A stretch of DNA of 64,000 nucleotides from Halobacteriales archaeon YIM A00010. Lineage in GTDB: Archaea > Halobacteriota > Halobacteria > Halobacteriales > Haloarculaceae. Below the pieces are notes generated by a model. It ran no database searches. It worked only from the letters and a program-made list of their open reading frames with translations, and was not told the DNA's origin. Numbering within the stretch: the stretch's first letter is position 1; each line of letters begins with the position of its first letter. Where the stretch lies: NCBI GenBank assembly GCA_025041175.1, contig JAKCFJ010000001.1, positions 1,736,001-1,800,000 of the forward strand. Direction: 5' to 3'. Of this stretch, positions 21,275 through 26,644 are shown one piece after another. The position numbers and the translations under genes were made by a program.

Positions 21275-21763
21275 CTACTTTTCGACGGTGAGCAGCGCCA
21301 CACGCTCACGGACGAGTTCGGGGATCCCCACGTCGGTCGCAGCCAGTTCCCGTTTGGTGATGTCGAAGTACGACCGGACGCGGTCTTCGTCGTAGGTTCC
21401 GAGCGTCTGCTGGGGTTCGAGCAGCTCGCGGATCGCCGCCGCAGCGGCAGACTCTTCCCCGCCGTCGACCAGCACGACGACCGGTGTTTCCCCCGCATCG
21501 ACACCGAGTTCGAGCGCCCGGTCGATCTGTCGCCGTCCCGCGGCGTACAGCAGCGTCTCGACCGACCGGCGTCGTGCCACGTTCTCCCCGCGCTCGATGG
21601 CTCGATCCGCGAGCGACAGGGCCGTTTGGAGGTGTGCGCGGTCGACCACGTACCGGGCATCGAACGCCTGGACGGTGGTTTCGTGTTCGGTCTCGATCGC
21701 GTTCAGGCGGGCAATGAAGCCGTCCACGTCCTCGGTGTGGGCCACCCCTTCAACCAGCTCCAT
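21275..21763 (-). CDS. cgi121: KEOPS complex subunit Cgi121
   Basis: The 162-residue protein matches Cgi121 (TPRKB homologue), the accessory subunit of the KEOPS/EKC complex that makes the t6A modification on ANN-decoding tRNAs. In archaea Cgi121 binds the tRNA 3' CCA end and helps recruit tRNA to the complex. Typical blocks are VQAFDARYVVDRAHLQTALS near the N-terminus and RRRSVETLLYAAGRRQIDRA in the middle. Its ATG overlaps the hel308 stop (ATGA), so the two are translationally coupled, an arrangement common in haloarchaea. Confidence 0.92.
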   Translation of the reverse strand: MELVEGVAHTEDVDGFIARLNAIETEHETTVQAFDARYVVDRAHLQTALSLADRAIERGENVARRRSVETLLYAAGRRQIDRALELGVDAGETPVVVLVDGGEESAAAAAIRELLEPQQTLGTYDEDRVRSYFDITKRELAATDVGIPELVRERVALLTVEK

Positions 21764-24015
21764 CAGAAATCACCGAGCTGGGATTGGTCGTCGTTCGTGG
21801 CTTGGGCGTTCGTGCCCGTGTCGGGGCGTGTGCGCTCGCTGGCGGTCACGTTCGCCATGGATGGATCGGTGTGGCCGGCCTGTTCGAGGATTCGTTCTGC
21901 GGTCTTCGTGCGGCCACGGAGCGCGCCGAGCACTGCGCTCTTGTCGGCCTCTCGGAGGTCGGTCCGCGTTTCGATGTCCGCGTCGTACAGCCGCCGGGCG
22001 CGCTTTCGTCCGACGTGGCGCACGTTCGTGAGATCGATGAGATCCTCGCCCACGCCGTGTTCGACGCGCTTTCTGGCGGTGTGGATCGCCGGCGCGATCT
22101 CCAGATCTAGTTCACCGGCGAGTCGTTCCGTCGCGCCGAGTAGCCACTCCGCAGTGTCGACTTTTCCCCGGATGTCGCCGGGACCCACGCCGTACCGGTC
22201 GGTGATCCGGTCTTCGTCCGCTTCCTCGGCCCAGTCTTCGAGCAGTCGGGCCGTTTTCAGCGCCGACAGCCACTCCTCGAAGCGGGCTTCCTCGAACTCG
22301 CTGGGCATCGCGCCCAAAAACTCCGTCTCGCGCTCGTAGGCCACCATCGTGTACTCCTCCTCGTCGCCCGACCGGAGGTACAGCTCGTACATGTCCGGCG
22401 TTCGGCAGACGAGCTGATACAAGCCAAGCGGGGTCGGATCACTCGCGCCGCGCAGCCCGTCGACGATCTCGGCCGCGCTCATCGGATCGAGATACAGCCG
22501 CGAGACCGTGTGACCGAGGCTCGTCGCTTCGAGCGTCCGGGTTTCACGCCCGCGTTCGGATTCGAGGAAGTCGTTCGCGACGAGATAGTCGATGCAGTCG
22601 TCGGTCACCCCTTCTAACTGGTCGCTATCGCTCGTTTGGGTGGCGTACAGCGTTTGGTCGAGAAAGGCGAGCAGCCCCTCTCGGGAGCGTGCAACGCCCG
22701 AGGCGACGGTTGCGAGGACGTGCGTTCGCAGTGCGGGTTCGGCGGCGAGCTTCGAGCGGACCGGCTCCGGGTCGGCCCACACGTATTTCTCGAACAGTTC
22801 GTCCAGCTCGTCGTGGCTGTTGGCCAACAGCAGCGCTTCGCCGTAGGGATCGCGTCCGGGGCGACCCGCCCGTCCGAACATCTGGTGGATTTCGAGCACC
22901 GACAACGGGGCCATTCCTCCGATGGAGCCGTCGTACCGCCGCCAGTCACGGACGACGACGCGCCGCGATGGGGTGTTGACGCCGGCCGCGAGCGTCGGCG
23001 TTGCCGCCACCACCTTGATGGACCGGTCGCGGAACGCGTCCTCGACGAGCGTCCGGCCTTCTCTGGAGAGCCCGGCGTGGTGAAACGCCGCCCCGCGCTC
23101 GACAGCGCGGGCAAGCTCCGCGTTCGTCTCCGTGTCGCTCGTCTCTCGGATCTCCGAAGCGACGGTCGCAAGCCGGTCGCGTTCGTCCTCGGTGAGCTGC
23201 TCGTCGGTGACGCTCGCAAGGCGTTTTGCGGCCCCTTCGGCGTTCCGGCGGGAGTTGACGAACACGAGCGTCGAGCCGCCCTCCGCGAGCGTGTCCCGCA
23301 CGATGGCTGCCGTGGGTTTCTCCCCCGAATCGACCGGCAGCTCCGAGCGTGAACCGTCGTCGAAATGCAGCGCCTGCCCGTAGTGGACGCCGGTCCGAAG
23401 GTCGATCGGCCGCCACTGTGAATCGACGAGCGCCGCATCGAGCCACTCGGCCACCTCCTCGGCGTTGCCGACGGTCGCAGAGAGCGCCACCGTCTGGACG
23501 TTCGGATTGTGCCGTCTGAGCTTCGCCAGCGTCACTTCGAGCGTCGGTCCCCGGTTCGAGTCGTCGACGAGATGCACCTCGTCGGCGACGACACACGACA
23601 GCTCGGAGATCCACGGCGCGTCGTTGCGAACGAGCGAATCGACCTTCTCGCTCGTGGCGACGACGATGTCAGAGGACGCCAGCCACTCGCCGCTGGACTC
23701 ATAGTTGCCGGTCGAAACGCCCACCGAAACGCCGTACTCCTCGTACTGCTCGAACTCGCGGTGTTTCTCGCTGGCGAGCGCGCGCAGCGGAACGATGTAC
23801 AGCGCTTTTCCGCCCTGCTCGACGCTCGAAAGCATCGCTAGCTCCGAGATGAGCGTCTTCCCGCTCGCGGTCGGCACGCTCGCAACCACGCTCTCGCCCT
23901 CCGTCACGCCCGCCTCGACGGCTTCGGCCTGGGGCGGATACAGCTCCTCGATACCACCATCACGGAGATGCCCGGGCAGCCACGACGGCACCCCCGGCAC
24001 CGATTCGACATCCAT
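21763..24015 (-). CDS. hel308: ATP-dependent DNA helicase Hel308
   Basis: A superfamily 2 Ski2-like 3'-5' DNA helicase (750 residues) acting at stalled forks and recombination intermediates. The Q-motif YPPQAEAV, Walker A PTASGKT (about residues 48-54), DEVH box [17 protein letters not shown] (motif III) and the motif VI region [10 protein letters not shown] are all present. The C-terminal third holds the winged-helix, ratchet and a helix-hairpin-helix-like domain ([20 protein letters not shown]), matching the known Hel308 domain order. Length is normal. cgi121 follows with an overlapping start. Confidence 0.96.
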
Positions 24016-24111: not shown

Positions 24112-24357
24112 ATGAAGATCGAATACGATCGGGACACCTGCATCGGGATGTTTCAGTGTGTCGCGGAGTGGGAGGGGTTCGAGAAGGACGAAACGGCGGG
24201 CAAGGCCGTCCTCGTGGAGGGCGAAGAAGAACAGCCGGACACGTTCATCCGGGAGGTGCCCGAAGACGCCGAGCTCGACGCGAAGTTCGCCGCCCGCGTC
24301 TGTCCCGTCGACGCCATCACCGTGTACGACGACGACGGCGAACAGCTCGTTCCGTGA
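24112..24357 (+). CDS. Small ferredoxin with three cluster cysteines
   Basis: An 81-residue acidic ferredoxin. The first cysteine pair sits in DTCIGMFQC and the third in VCPVDAI; the usual middle cysteine of CxxCxxC is Met here (CIGMFQC). With only three ligands in the pattern Cx5C...CP a [3Fe-4S] cluster is expected, as in many P450-type and haloarchaeal single-cluster ferredoxins. An insert of about 40 acidic residues separates the two halves. The redox partner is unknown; neighbours (hel308 divergent, a Nudix hydrolase downstream) do not suggest one. Confidence 0.85.
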   Translation: MKIEYDRDTCIGMFQCVAEWEGFEKDETAGKAVLVEGEEEQPDTFIREVPEDAELDAKFAARVCPVDAITVYDDDGEQLVP

Positions 24358-24393: not shown

Positions 24394-24894
24394 ATGAAAG
24401 CGGCGACACTTTGTCATCCCATTGTCGACGGTGAGTTGCTCTTGATTCGAAAACAACGAGGTATCGGTGCTGGAAAGCTCGTCGGACCGGGCGGAAAGAT
24501 CGAACCGGGAGAAATACCCCGAGAAGCCGCGTGTCGAGAGCTTCGTGAAGAGCTTCACGTGTCCCCGATCGGTATGAAGCAGTGTGGTGAGTTCGCGTTT
24601 CATCTCCGCGACGACCGTCCGAACGACGATTCGATGGTCGTCTCCGTGTTCGTAGCGAACGGGATCGACGGCGAACCGGTTGCGACCGAAGAGGCTGTTC
24701 CCGTGTGGCACTCCGCGACGGAGCTACCGTACGATGAGATGTGGCCGGACGACCGCATCTGGATTCCCCACATGCTCGATGGCGACTCCTTCAGGGGAAC
24801 GTTCGTTCTGAGCGCCGATGGAGGGTCGTTGCTCCACTATGAGATGGAACTGGATGTTGATCTGGGTGCCCAAGAGCAACTTCCAGACGGGTAA
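24394..24894 (+). CDS. Nudix hydrolase, MutT/MTH1-like
   Basis: A 166-residue Nudix protein probably cleansing oxidised nucleotides. The Nudix box reads GGKIEPGEIPREAACRELRE then ELHV (residues about 33-56): the catalytic REXXEE glutamates are complete, while the last Gly of the consensus is His. The strand after the box (GEFAFHLRD) and the C-terminal EMWPDDRIWIPHML resemble the 8-oxo-dGTP/2-OH-dATP hydrolase MTH1 group. It converges on the rhodopsin gene with 6 bases between stop codons. The substrate is inferred from family only. Confidence 0.88.
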   Translation: MKAATLCHPIVDGELLLIRKQRGIGAGKLVGPGGKIEPGEIPREAACRELREELHVSPIGMKQCGEFAFHLRDDRPNDDSMVVSVFVANGIDGEPVATEEAVPVWHSATELPYDEMWPDDRIWIPHMLDGDSFRGTFVLSADGGSLLHYEMELDVDLGAQEQLPDG

Positions 24895-24900
24895 ATCGAT

Positions 24901-25662
24901 TCACCCACCGAGCGTGCGGGGTTTCGTGTTGGTGGGTTCGTCGACTGGCGTGTCGGCCCGGAGCAGGAGGGTCCCGAACCCGACTTTCACGAGGAGATCG
25001 ACGAGGAGATACGCGAGCAACAGCCCGGTCGTCGGGAGAACGTTCAGGACGTGGCCGAGCAGCCACACGACGGGATACAGTCCCAAGAGAACGATAACGA
25101 CGTTCCGGAGCATGCTGAACAGCATTGCTACTTCGGTCGACCGTTCGGCTGCGGCTCGTGAGAGCGGGCGGATCAACAGCCCCAGCACGCCGAGATACGC
25201 GAGGACACTCGCCCCGAACAGCGCGATCCGGAGCGTGTCGGGATCCAGTCCCGCCATCCCTCGGTCGGTGAGCACCGTTGCGAGACCGAGCACCACCATC
25301 GACGCGGCGAACCCGACGAGCGCGGCGGCCGTGCGGCGCGTTCCGGCCGCAAGCACCGCGAGCGCGAGCAGTATCAACGGGAGGGTGAGCAGCCAATCCA
25401 CGAAATGCAGCCAGTACACCGTGTGTGTTTCACCACCGTACCGTACTGTCATCGCGCCGTAGCCGAGCGCTAGCAGCAGGTACGCGAGGCCTCCGATAGC
25501 GGCAACCGCAACGGTGACCGCCGAGAGCTTCCGCTTGGTCGCCTCCGTCTCTCCCCAGCCGGCCCTGACGAAATACCCGGTCCCGAGCACCAGCCCGATC
25601 GTCCCAAGCAGTAACCAGATCCGACCGCTGTCGATGGCCTCAGCCTGTAGCAACACTGCCAT
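24901..25662 (-). CDS. Microbial (type 1) rhodopsin with unusual helix-C residues
   Basis: A seven-helix retinal protein of 253 residues. The Schiff-base lysine is K226 in VDLLVKVGFG, with D222 equal to bacteriorhodopsin (BR) D212. Helix C reads TVYWLHFVDWLLTLPLILLA: D89, W90, T93 and P95 correspond to BR D85, W86, T89, P91. BR R82 is His (H86) and the proton donor D96 is Ala (A100). In helix F, BR W182 is Leu (L193), while Y185 and W189 are kept (Y196, W200). BR E204 is Leu and D115 is Ala. Loss of donor and release groups argues against an efficient proton pump. A sensory or unknown photochemical role is inferred, but no transducer (htr) gene is adjacent. It lies between mdh and a Nudix gene. 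Confidence 0.93.
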   Translation of the reverse strand: MAVLLQAEAIDSGRIWLLLGTIGLVLGTGYFVRAGWGETEATKRKLSAVTVAVAAIGGLAYLLLALGYGAMTVRYGGETHTVYWLHFVDWLLTLPLILLALAVLAAGTRRTAAALVGFAASMVVLGLATVLTDRGMAGLDPDTLRIALFGASVLAYLGVLGLLIRPLSRAAAERSTEVAMLFSMLRNVVIVLLGLYPVVWLLGHVLNVLPTTGLLLAYLLVDLLVKVGFGTLLLRADTPVDEPTNTKPRTLGG

Positions 25663-25687
25663 CGAACTGGTTATCGAGAGTGTCTGA

Positions 25688-25705
25688 CTTATATTTGACT
25701 TTTCG
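25688..25705 (-). promoter_or_regulatory. Rhodopsin gene promoter (BRE + TATA)
   Basis: On the minus strand CGAAAAGTC (BRE-like) precedes AAATATAAG, centred 30 bases before the start codon; a nearly leaderless transcript is expected. The rhodopsin therefore has its own promoter in the gap after mdh. Confidence 0.6.
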
Positions 25706-25729
25706 AGGCGGCCGTCCGCGCGCTCGGAT

Positions 25730-26644
25730 TCAAGCGATCGTCTCGTACTGCTCGGCTAGCTTCTCGGCCGCCTCGCCCAGCTGGTCTCGTTCCCCGTCGG
25801 ACAGCTCCCACTCCACGATCTCCTCGACGCCGTCCCGTCCGAGCTTGACGGGCACGCCGAGTCCGACGCCGCTGTGACCGAACTCGCCGTCGAGAACGAT
25901 CGAACCGGGGAGCACCGCGCCGGTGTCTCGCAGCACGGCCTCCACCATGTGGCCGACGCCGGTGGCTGGTCCCCACTCGGTCGCCCCTTTGCGCTCGATG
26001 ACGTTCATCGCGCTCTCCTGGAGATCCCCGAGAATGCGCTCTTTTTCCTCGTCCGTGAACGACGGGTCCCGGCCGTTCACCCGCACCTTCGAGAACGCCG
26101 GGACCTGTGCATCGCCGTGCTCACCGAGGATCGTCGCCTCGACGTTTCTCACGGGCACGTCGAACTCCTGGGAGAGCACGTACCGGAACCGCGCGCTGTC
26201 GAGCCGGCCACCGAACCCGATCACTTTCTCACGGGCACGATCGCCCGACTCGTACAGGTGGCGGTTCAGCAGATCGACCGGGTTCGACGTGGTGATCGTC
26301 ACGAAATCGTCGTTGTGCTCTGCGAGCGACGACCTGATGTCCTCCATGATCGGCGCGTTGTCTTCCGCCAGATCGAGCCGGGTCTGGCCGGGCTTGCGGG
26401 GAATGCCCGCCGTGATGACGACGACATCGGAGCCGGCGGTCGCCTCGTAGCTCCCCTGTCGAACGTCCGTGTTCGCGTCGTAGGCGACGCCGTGGTTCAC
26501 GTCGGCCGCCTGCCCGATCGTGGTGTCCTCCTGGTCAGGGATGTCCACGAACACTACCTCATCAGCGATGTCACGGAGTGCGATGTTGTATCCGGCTGCT
26601 GCACCAACCGTCCCAGCCGCGCCCACTACGCTTACTTTTACCAT
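25730..26644 (-). CDS. mdh: Malate dehydrogenase (LDH-like archaeal type)
   Basis: NAD(P)-dependent malate dehydrogenase (304 residues) of the lactate-dehydrogenase-like group known from haloarchaea. The nucleotide loop is [19 protein letters not shown] (about residues 6-24), and FVDI marks the cofactor-selecting acidic residue. Substrate arginines are in [12 protein letters not shown] and in the [10 protein letters not shown] helix; the catalytic His is in GEHGDAQVP. The TCA-cycle role fits the citrate synthase encoded at 6.3-7.4 kb. It has its own promoter with BRE CGAAG and GTTTAAC at 26668-26680. Confidence 0.96.

Follow-up and report, generated by a model that had tools for sequence, protein, structure and literature searches.

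A histidine-82 opsin clade of Halocatena that lacks the proton-pump relay, in a genome where no known retinal-forming gene was found

Results

The opsin gene and its neighbors

The window analyzed here is a stretch of 64,000 nucleotides from Halobacteriales archaeon YIM A00010 (GenBank assembly GCA_025041175.1, contig JAKCFJ010000001.1, positions 1,736,001 to 1,800,000). An earlier note, made from the sequence alone, had placed a rhodopsin reading frame in it; the frame exists, and its strand, left unstated in the note, is the minus strand. The gene, its neighbors and the codons and promoter block discussed below are listed in order of position; the helicase, presumably of the Hel308 type by its sequence, serves as a syntenic anchor.

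21763..24015, minus strand: helicase gene, presumably Hel308-type
24112..24357, plus strand: ferredoxin gene (fdx), adjoining the opsin in all Halocatena loci compared, with the NUDIX gene intervening in the window
24394..24894, plus strand: NUDIX hydrolase gene, between ferredoxin and opsin
24901..25662, minus strand: opsin gene, 253 aa, H-type Alt-rhodopsin (coding 25662-24904, stop codon 24901-24903)
24985..24987, minus strand: codon for Lys226 (bacteriorhodopsin Lys216, the Schiff-base lysine), kept; invariant in 37 aligned opsins
25084..25086, minus strand: codon for Leu193 (bacteriorhodopsin Trp182); Leu, Phe or Trp among orthologs
25396..25398, minus strand: codon for Asp89 (bacteriorhodopsin Asp85, counterion), kept
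25405..25407, minus strand: codon CAT for His86 (bacteriorhodopsin Arg82); conserved in 6/6 distinct orthologs
25663..25707, minus strand: conserved promoter block TCGAAAAGTCAAATATAAGTCAGACACTCTCGATAACCAGTTCG, with a TATA-like box ~25 nt before the ATG
25730..26644, minus strand: malate dehydrogenase gene (mdh); crtY-brp stand between mdh and opsin in genome G052

The encoded protein matches the Bac_rhodopsin family (PF01036; E 2.4e-40, 138.9 bits against a cut-off of 24.6) and is the sole such match detected in the 5.97-Mb genome. The AF2 model (mean pLDDT 87.9) superposes on bacteriorhodopsin (BR) over ~225 residues at 1.1-1.6 Å rmsd with a Z of about 33, and thus predicts the seven-helix fold of the family; as expected of a type-1 rhodopsin, helix G carries the Schiff-base lysine, K226. 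Residues H86, D89, L193, Y196, W200, D222 and K226 correspond to BR R82, D85, W182, Y185, W189, D212 and K216, and BR numbering is used hereafter. Alignment with the solved BRs yielded the changes R82H, W182L, D96A, D115A, E194V and E204L, with W138 and T90 also altered; the residue list of the earlier note was correct, and E194V is to be added to it. Misplacement of the His and Leu by an indel, which the note had named as a possible error, is ruled out, since helices C and F align to BR without any indel and the superposition of the AF2 model agrees.

Residue pattern across Halocatena and other haloarchaea

We compared seven Halocatena genomes: that of the window (G000), G001, the two H. marina genomes (G002 and G003), G004, G005 and G006. 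All seven carry an ortholog with an open reading frame, making six distinct sequences, five of which share 51-84% identity with the window protein. Position 82 is His in 6/6 distinct orthologs and Arg in 69/69 other alignable Lys-bearing haloarchaeal opsins, which excludes chance and, for the His, rules out the sequencing error against which the note had cautioned. The residue changes in the window opsin are confirmed as real. When 391 genomes of the class were scanned for the pattern W-x-H-[FY]-x-[DE]-W, matches within opsin genes were confined to Halocatena and a single further locus, L060. The latter is a divergent opsin of a Halorubrum-like genome (G429) that sits on a very long branch with an independent His82, carries Glu at 85 and Gly at 89 and 182, and keeps Asp212 and Lys216.

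The opsin tree gathers the Halocatena His82 proteins into a single clade (support 100/99); the deep branch that places this clade among the BR and SR lineages has a support of only 36/94. Of the His/Leu combination that was proposed to define a clade, the His does so and the Leu does not: position 182 is Leu in G000, G001 and G006, Phe in G004 and G005, and Trp in H. marina, the only source of orthologs that retain Trp182 and Trp138. Elsewhere in the protein, position 96 is Ala in all orthologs, E194 is replaced by Val or Gln, and E204 by Leu, Thr or Ala; with D96, E194 and E204 lost in addition to R82 throughout, the proton-pump relay is gone. Tyr57, Asp85, Trp86, Tyr185, Trp189, Asp212 and Lys216 are kept in every ortholog, and the retinal-lining residues W86, T89, G122, S141, Y185 and W189 are invariant. 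The window opsin accordingly has both counterions of a BR-type pump, D85 and D212, with His, Ala, Val and Leu in place of Arg82, D96, E194 and E204, and it keeps Asp where a halorhodopsin has Thr in place of D85.

Locus history

In G052, which belongs to another genus of the same family, the gene order is hel308-fdx-opsin-crtY-brp-mdh and the opsin is canonical. The corresponding slot reads opsin-crtY-mdh in H. marina and opsin-mdh in G000, G001 and G006, with neither crtY nor brp at the locus; in G004 and G005, the fdx-opsin pair lies in different surroundings. From these extant states, the window opsin would trace back to an opsin that formed a cassette with crtY and brp between ferredoxin and mdh. 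Synteny suggests a link between the His82 clade and the G052 opsin, and a tree joining them in one clade was not rejected (p-AU 0.56). Of the loci compared, the window's is the only one in which a NUDIX gene separates ferredoxin from opsin; the gene is probably an insertion and is not thought to be part of the opsin system. The reverse erosion is seen in G055 (L148), where the slot between ferredoxin and mdh holds crtY-brp and no opsin.

H. marina carries a second brp-crtY set elsewhere, beside a BR and an HR. Its His82 opsin has already lost the whole relay and has kept the retinal pocket, an arrangement of extant states from which we infer that relay loss preceded any relaxation of the pocket. 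Because brp is kept in this species alongside His82 and a relay that is entirely gone, His82 is not explained by decay alone, and the idea that it merely accompanies a loss of retinal is rejected.

Chromophore supply

Retinal and carotenoid genes were sought by HMM searches. Brp/Blh (PF15461) was found in 115/142 genomes of the family; within the genus it was found only in H. marina, and not in the other five of seven genomes. Three further family genomes (G045, G062 and G114) also have Lys-bearing opsins with Brp/Blh undetected, so this part of the pattern is not unique to Halocatena. Phytoene synthase (PF00494) was present in 138/142 family genomes and was missed by the searches only in G000, G001, G006 and the 73%-complete G102; G004 and G005, in which the opsin stands alone, keep it. 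An RPE65-type oxygenase (PF03055) was not found in G000, G004 or G005 and is present in G001, G006 and H. marina; in G001 (L080) and G006 it is kept despite no phytoene synthase being found, and it could there cleave scavenged carotenoids. The only lycopene-cyclase-domain protein found in G000 is a half-length one of 120 aa (L143 5523-5882; G000:C1, about 669.5 kb), with similar proteins in G004, G005 and H. marina. As none of the known retinal-forming or C40-carotenoid genes searched for was found in G000, the color-tuning account offered in the earlier note is conditional on a chromophore from elsewhere. Two bacterial cases are described (PMC7734400): Rhodoluna depends on retinal supplied from outside, and Aurantimicrobium produces retinal although it has none of the known genes for this.

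Promoter conservation and selection

Across the six Halocatena orthologs, conservation extends over the 45 bp that precede the ATG, with 8-15 of 15 bases identical per block, and further upstream identity falls to near random except in the close pair G001-G006. This block, which has a single match in the window, bears out the separate promoter that had been proposed, and its TATA-like box would predict a leaderless mRNA start. For YIM 93972, a halorhodopsin has been reported from genome and proteome data (PMC10067837). In G001 a single opsin was detected, the His82 ortholog L010, which is without the halorhodopsin motif; if it is the reported protein, as seems to be the case, the report suggests, without proving, that the His82 opsin is made.

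To gauge constraint on the pocket, 23 retinal-contact positions of BR structures were compared with the remaining positions across opsin pairs. Canonical pairs are 91-100% identical at the contacts versus 48-64% elsewhere, and the step from the G052 opsin to that of H. marina retains a contrast of 83% versus 50% (p 0.0035). Into and among the Brp-less orthologs, contact and other positions were not distinguishable (odds ratio ~1 versus 5-24 for canonical pairs); a pocket evolving at the background rate outside H. marina would be compatible both with retuning and with a loss of retinal. Loss of T90 and D115 coincides exactly with G000, G001 and G006, the genomes in which no phytoene synthase was found, a tie that is suggestive only because these genomes form two lineages on the opsin tree. 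Nine Schiff-base-site positions, chosen from prior knowledge, are all invariant versus 78/214 positions overall (p 8e-5). The NG86 dN/dS of the opsin is 0.13-0.36 versus 0.03-0.14 for mdh, ferredoxin and the helicase, synonymous sites being near saturation for distant pairs; with these ratios far below 1, the opsin is under purifying selection, looser than that on its neighbors.

Discussion

Which activity could such a protein have? Since R82, D96, E194 and E204 are lost together in every ortholog, a pump is unlikely, and the slow or non-pumping photocycle that was raised in the earlier note becomes likely. In the Coccomyxa rhodopsin (CsR), replacement of the R82 equivalent by Gln, not His, gave weak pumping with passive light-gated proton flow, pumping is much impaired by substitutions at R82 in both CsR and BR, and a blue shift of >70 nm is reported for BR with W182F (PMC4657025); a literature search found no paper on W182L. 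By analogy with these R82-substituted pumps, an opsin that binds retinal would most likely show a light-gated leak or a slow photocycle. As for sensing, the note had observed that no transducer gene is adjacent and had proposed a genome search for unlinked htr genes. That search gives a stronger result: no MCP domain (PF00015) was found by HMM in the whole of G000, nor in G004 or G005. YIM A00010 and YIM 93972 form hyphae and spores, and the hyphal relatives have lost the archaellum and are without motility (PMC10067837), which together with the MCP result makes a classical transducer-coupled sensor unlikely and, for G000, rules out a phototaxis receptor. A single MCP occurs in each of G001, G006 and H. 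marina (L075, L076 and L073); its gene is not linked to the opsin, and the protein is predicted to have two membrane helices near its N terminus, with a short loop.

Taken together, the reading toward which we lean, giving it close to an even chance, is that of a former pump that is now a non-pumping H-type Alt-rhodopsin using retinal that is either acquired from the environment or made by an unknown route. The shared promoter block, the low dN/dS and the invariant Schiff-base site argue for continued function, and both retinal sources have bacterial precedents, in Rhodoluna and Aurantimicrobium. A putative protonated Schiff base would still form in the Halocatena opsin with retinal from either source; light would drive a slow, poorly coupled cycle with little or no pumping and possibly a light-gated proton leak; absorption would probably be blue-shifted where W182 is lost; and the cycle would serve neither energy conversion nor phototaxis.

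The main rival to this retinal-using reading, unlikely in our estimation though of real weight, holds that the opsin works free of retinal as has been proposed for opsin-related proteins (ORPs), with Lys216, Asp85 and Asp212 forming a buried salt-bridge network, maybe in a membrane sensor or scaffold. The missing retinal and carotenoid genes of G000, the pocket constraint lost in Brp-less lineages and the persistence of purifying selection and promoter all accord with it, as does the occurrence of ORPs in genomes without crtY and brp, but ORPs have replaced Lys216 (PMC4915679), which is invariant in the Halocatena orthologs, as are the six retinal-lining residues. It is likewise possible, if doubtful, that a Lys-bearing opsin has persisted after its chromophore pathway was lost and now works with another ligand or with none, as a pump-to-ORP intermediate in non-motile, hyphae-forming archaea.

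That the gene is an expressed but functionless remnant, decaying after the loss of its phototrophic cassette, would agree with the absence of crtY and brp from the locus and with the dwindling of BR-invariant residues (of 64, 52 are retained in H. marina, 42 in the window protein and 32 in G001); a dN/dS well below 1, the open frame in 7/7 genomes, the conserved promoter block and a relay loss already complete in H. marina, which keeps brp, render it improbable. We regard as very unlikely an ordinary outward pump that tolerates His82 and is fed outside retinal. D85, D212 and K216 are kept, and some proton pumps lack a release group or use another donor, but here the four relay residues are jointly absent in every ortholog and R82 substitutions are costly to pumping. 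Signaling through an unlinked Htr transducer is scarcely credible: the single two-TM, short-loop MCPs of G001, G006 and H. marina could be cited for it, against which stand the MCP-less genomes and the non-motile hyphal relatives.

The Halocatena loci offer a graded natural series, from opsin-crtY-brp in a related genus, through opsin-crtY with the pocket intact and the relay lost in H. marina, to the opsin alone, the last stage splitting into genomes that keep phytoene synthase (G004 and G005) and those in which it was not found (G000, G001 and G006). This series makes two questions directly testable: the natural role of His82 and the persistence of an opsin without a known retinal route. In a genome where no known retinal-making gene was found, the opsin either borrows retinal or no longer serves as a light pump.

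Among known systems, bacteriorhodopsin, deltarhodopsin and cruxrhodopsin share the fold, 35-40% identity and D85, D212, K216, W86 and W189 with the window opsin, and a canonical opsin fills the same slot in G052; the window opsin differs from them by R82H, D96A, E194V and E204L and by its changes at W182, W138, T90 and D115. Like the G000 opsin, with no Brp/Blh found in its genome and neither crtY nor brp at its locus, the ORPs (Becker et al. 2016, PMC4915679) reside in genomes without crtY and brp, but they are without Lys216, which the Halocatena clade keeps. In G080, G111 and G122, four weak Bac_rhodopsin matches (L105, L106, L116 and L117) have Arg or His in place of the Schiff-base lysine; these are probable ORPs, in hosts without detected Brp/Blh. 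Rhodoluna and Aurantimicrobium (PMC7734400) likewise have a Lys-bearing opsin without a known retinal-forming enzyme, but their rhodopsins do pump, and the bacteria have carotenoid genes, whereas in G000 the relay is lost and no phytoene synthase was found. The published name 'halorhodopsin' for the YIM 93972 opsin (PMC10067837) is probably a misnomer, as judged from L010 of G001, which keeps Asp85, has His82 and is without the halorhodopsin Thr motif; this suggests that it is not a chloride pump. The category to which the window opsin belongs is one already described, a point missed by the earlier note: in Bulzu et al. (2022, PMC9601134), rhodopsins without Arg82 are termed Alt-rhodopsins, those with His82 are the H-type, and three Halobacteriota are counted among Alt-rhodopsins. 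The H-type shares with the Halocatena opsins the same Arg82-to-His change and the DxxxK of helix G; the H-type cluster described there in detail is from giant viruses, whereas the Halocatena opsins form a genus-wide haloarchaeal clade on a BR-type background.
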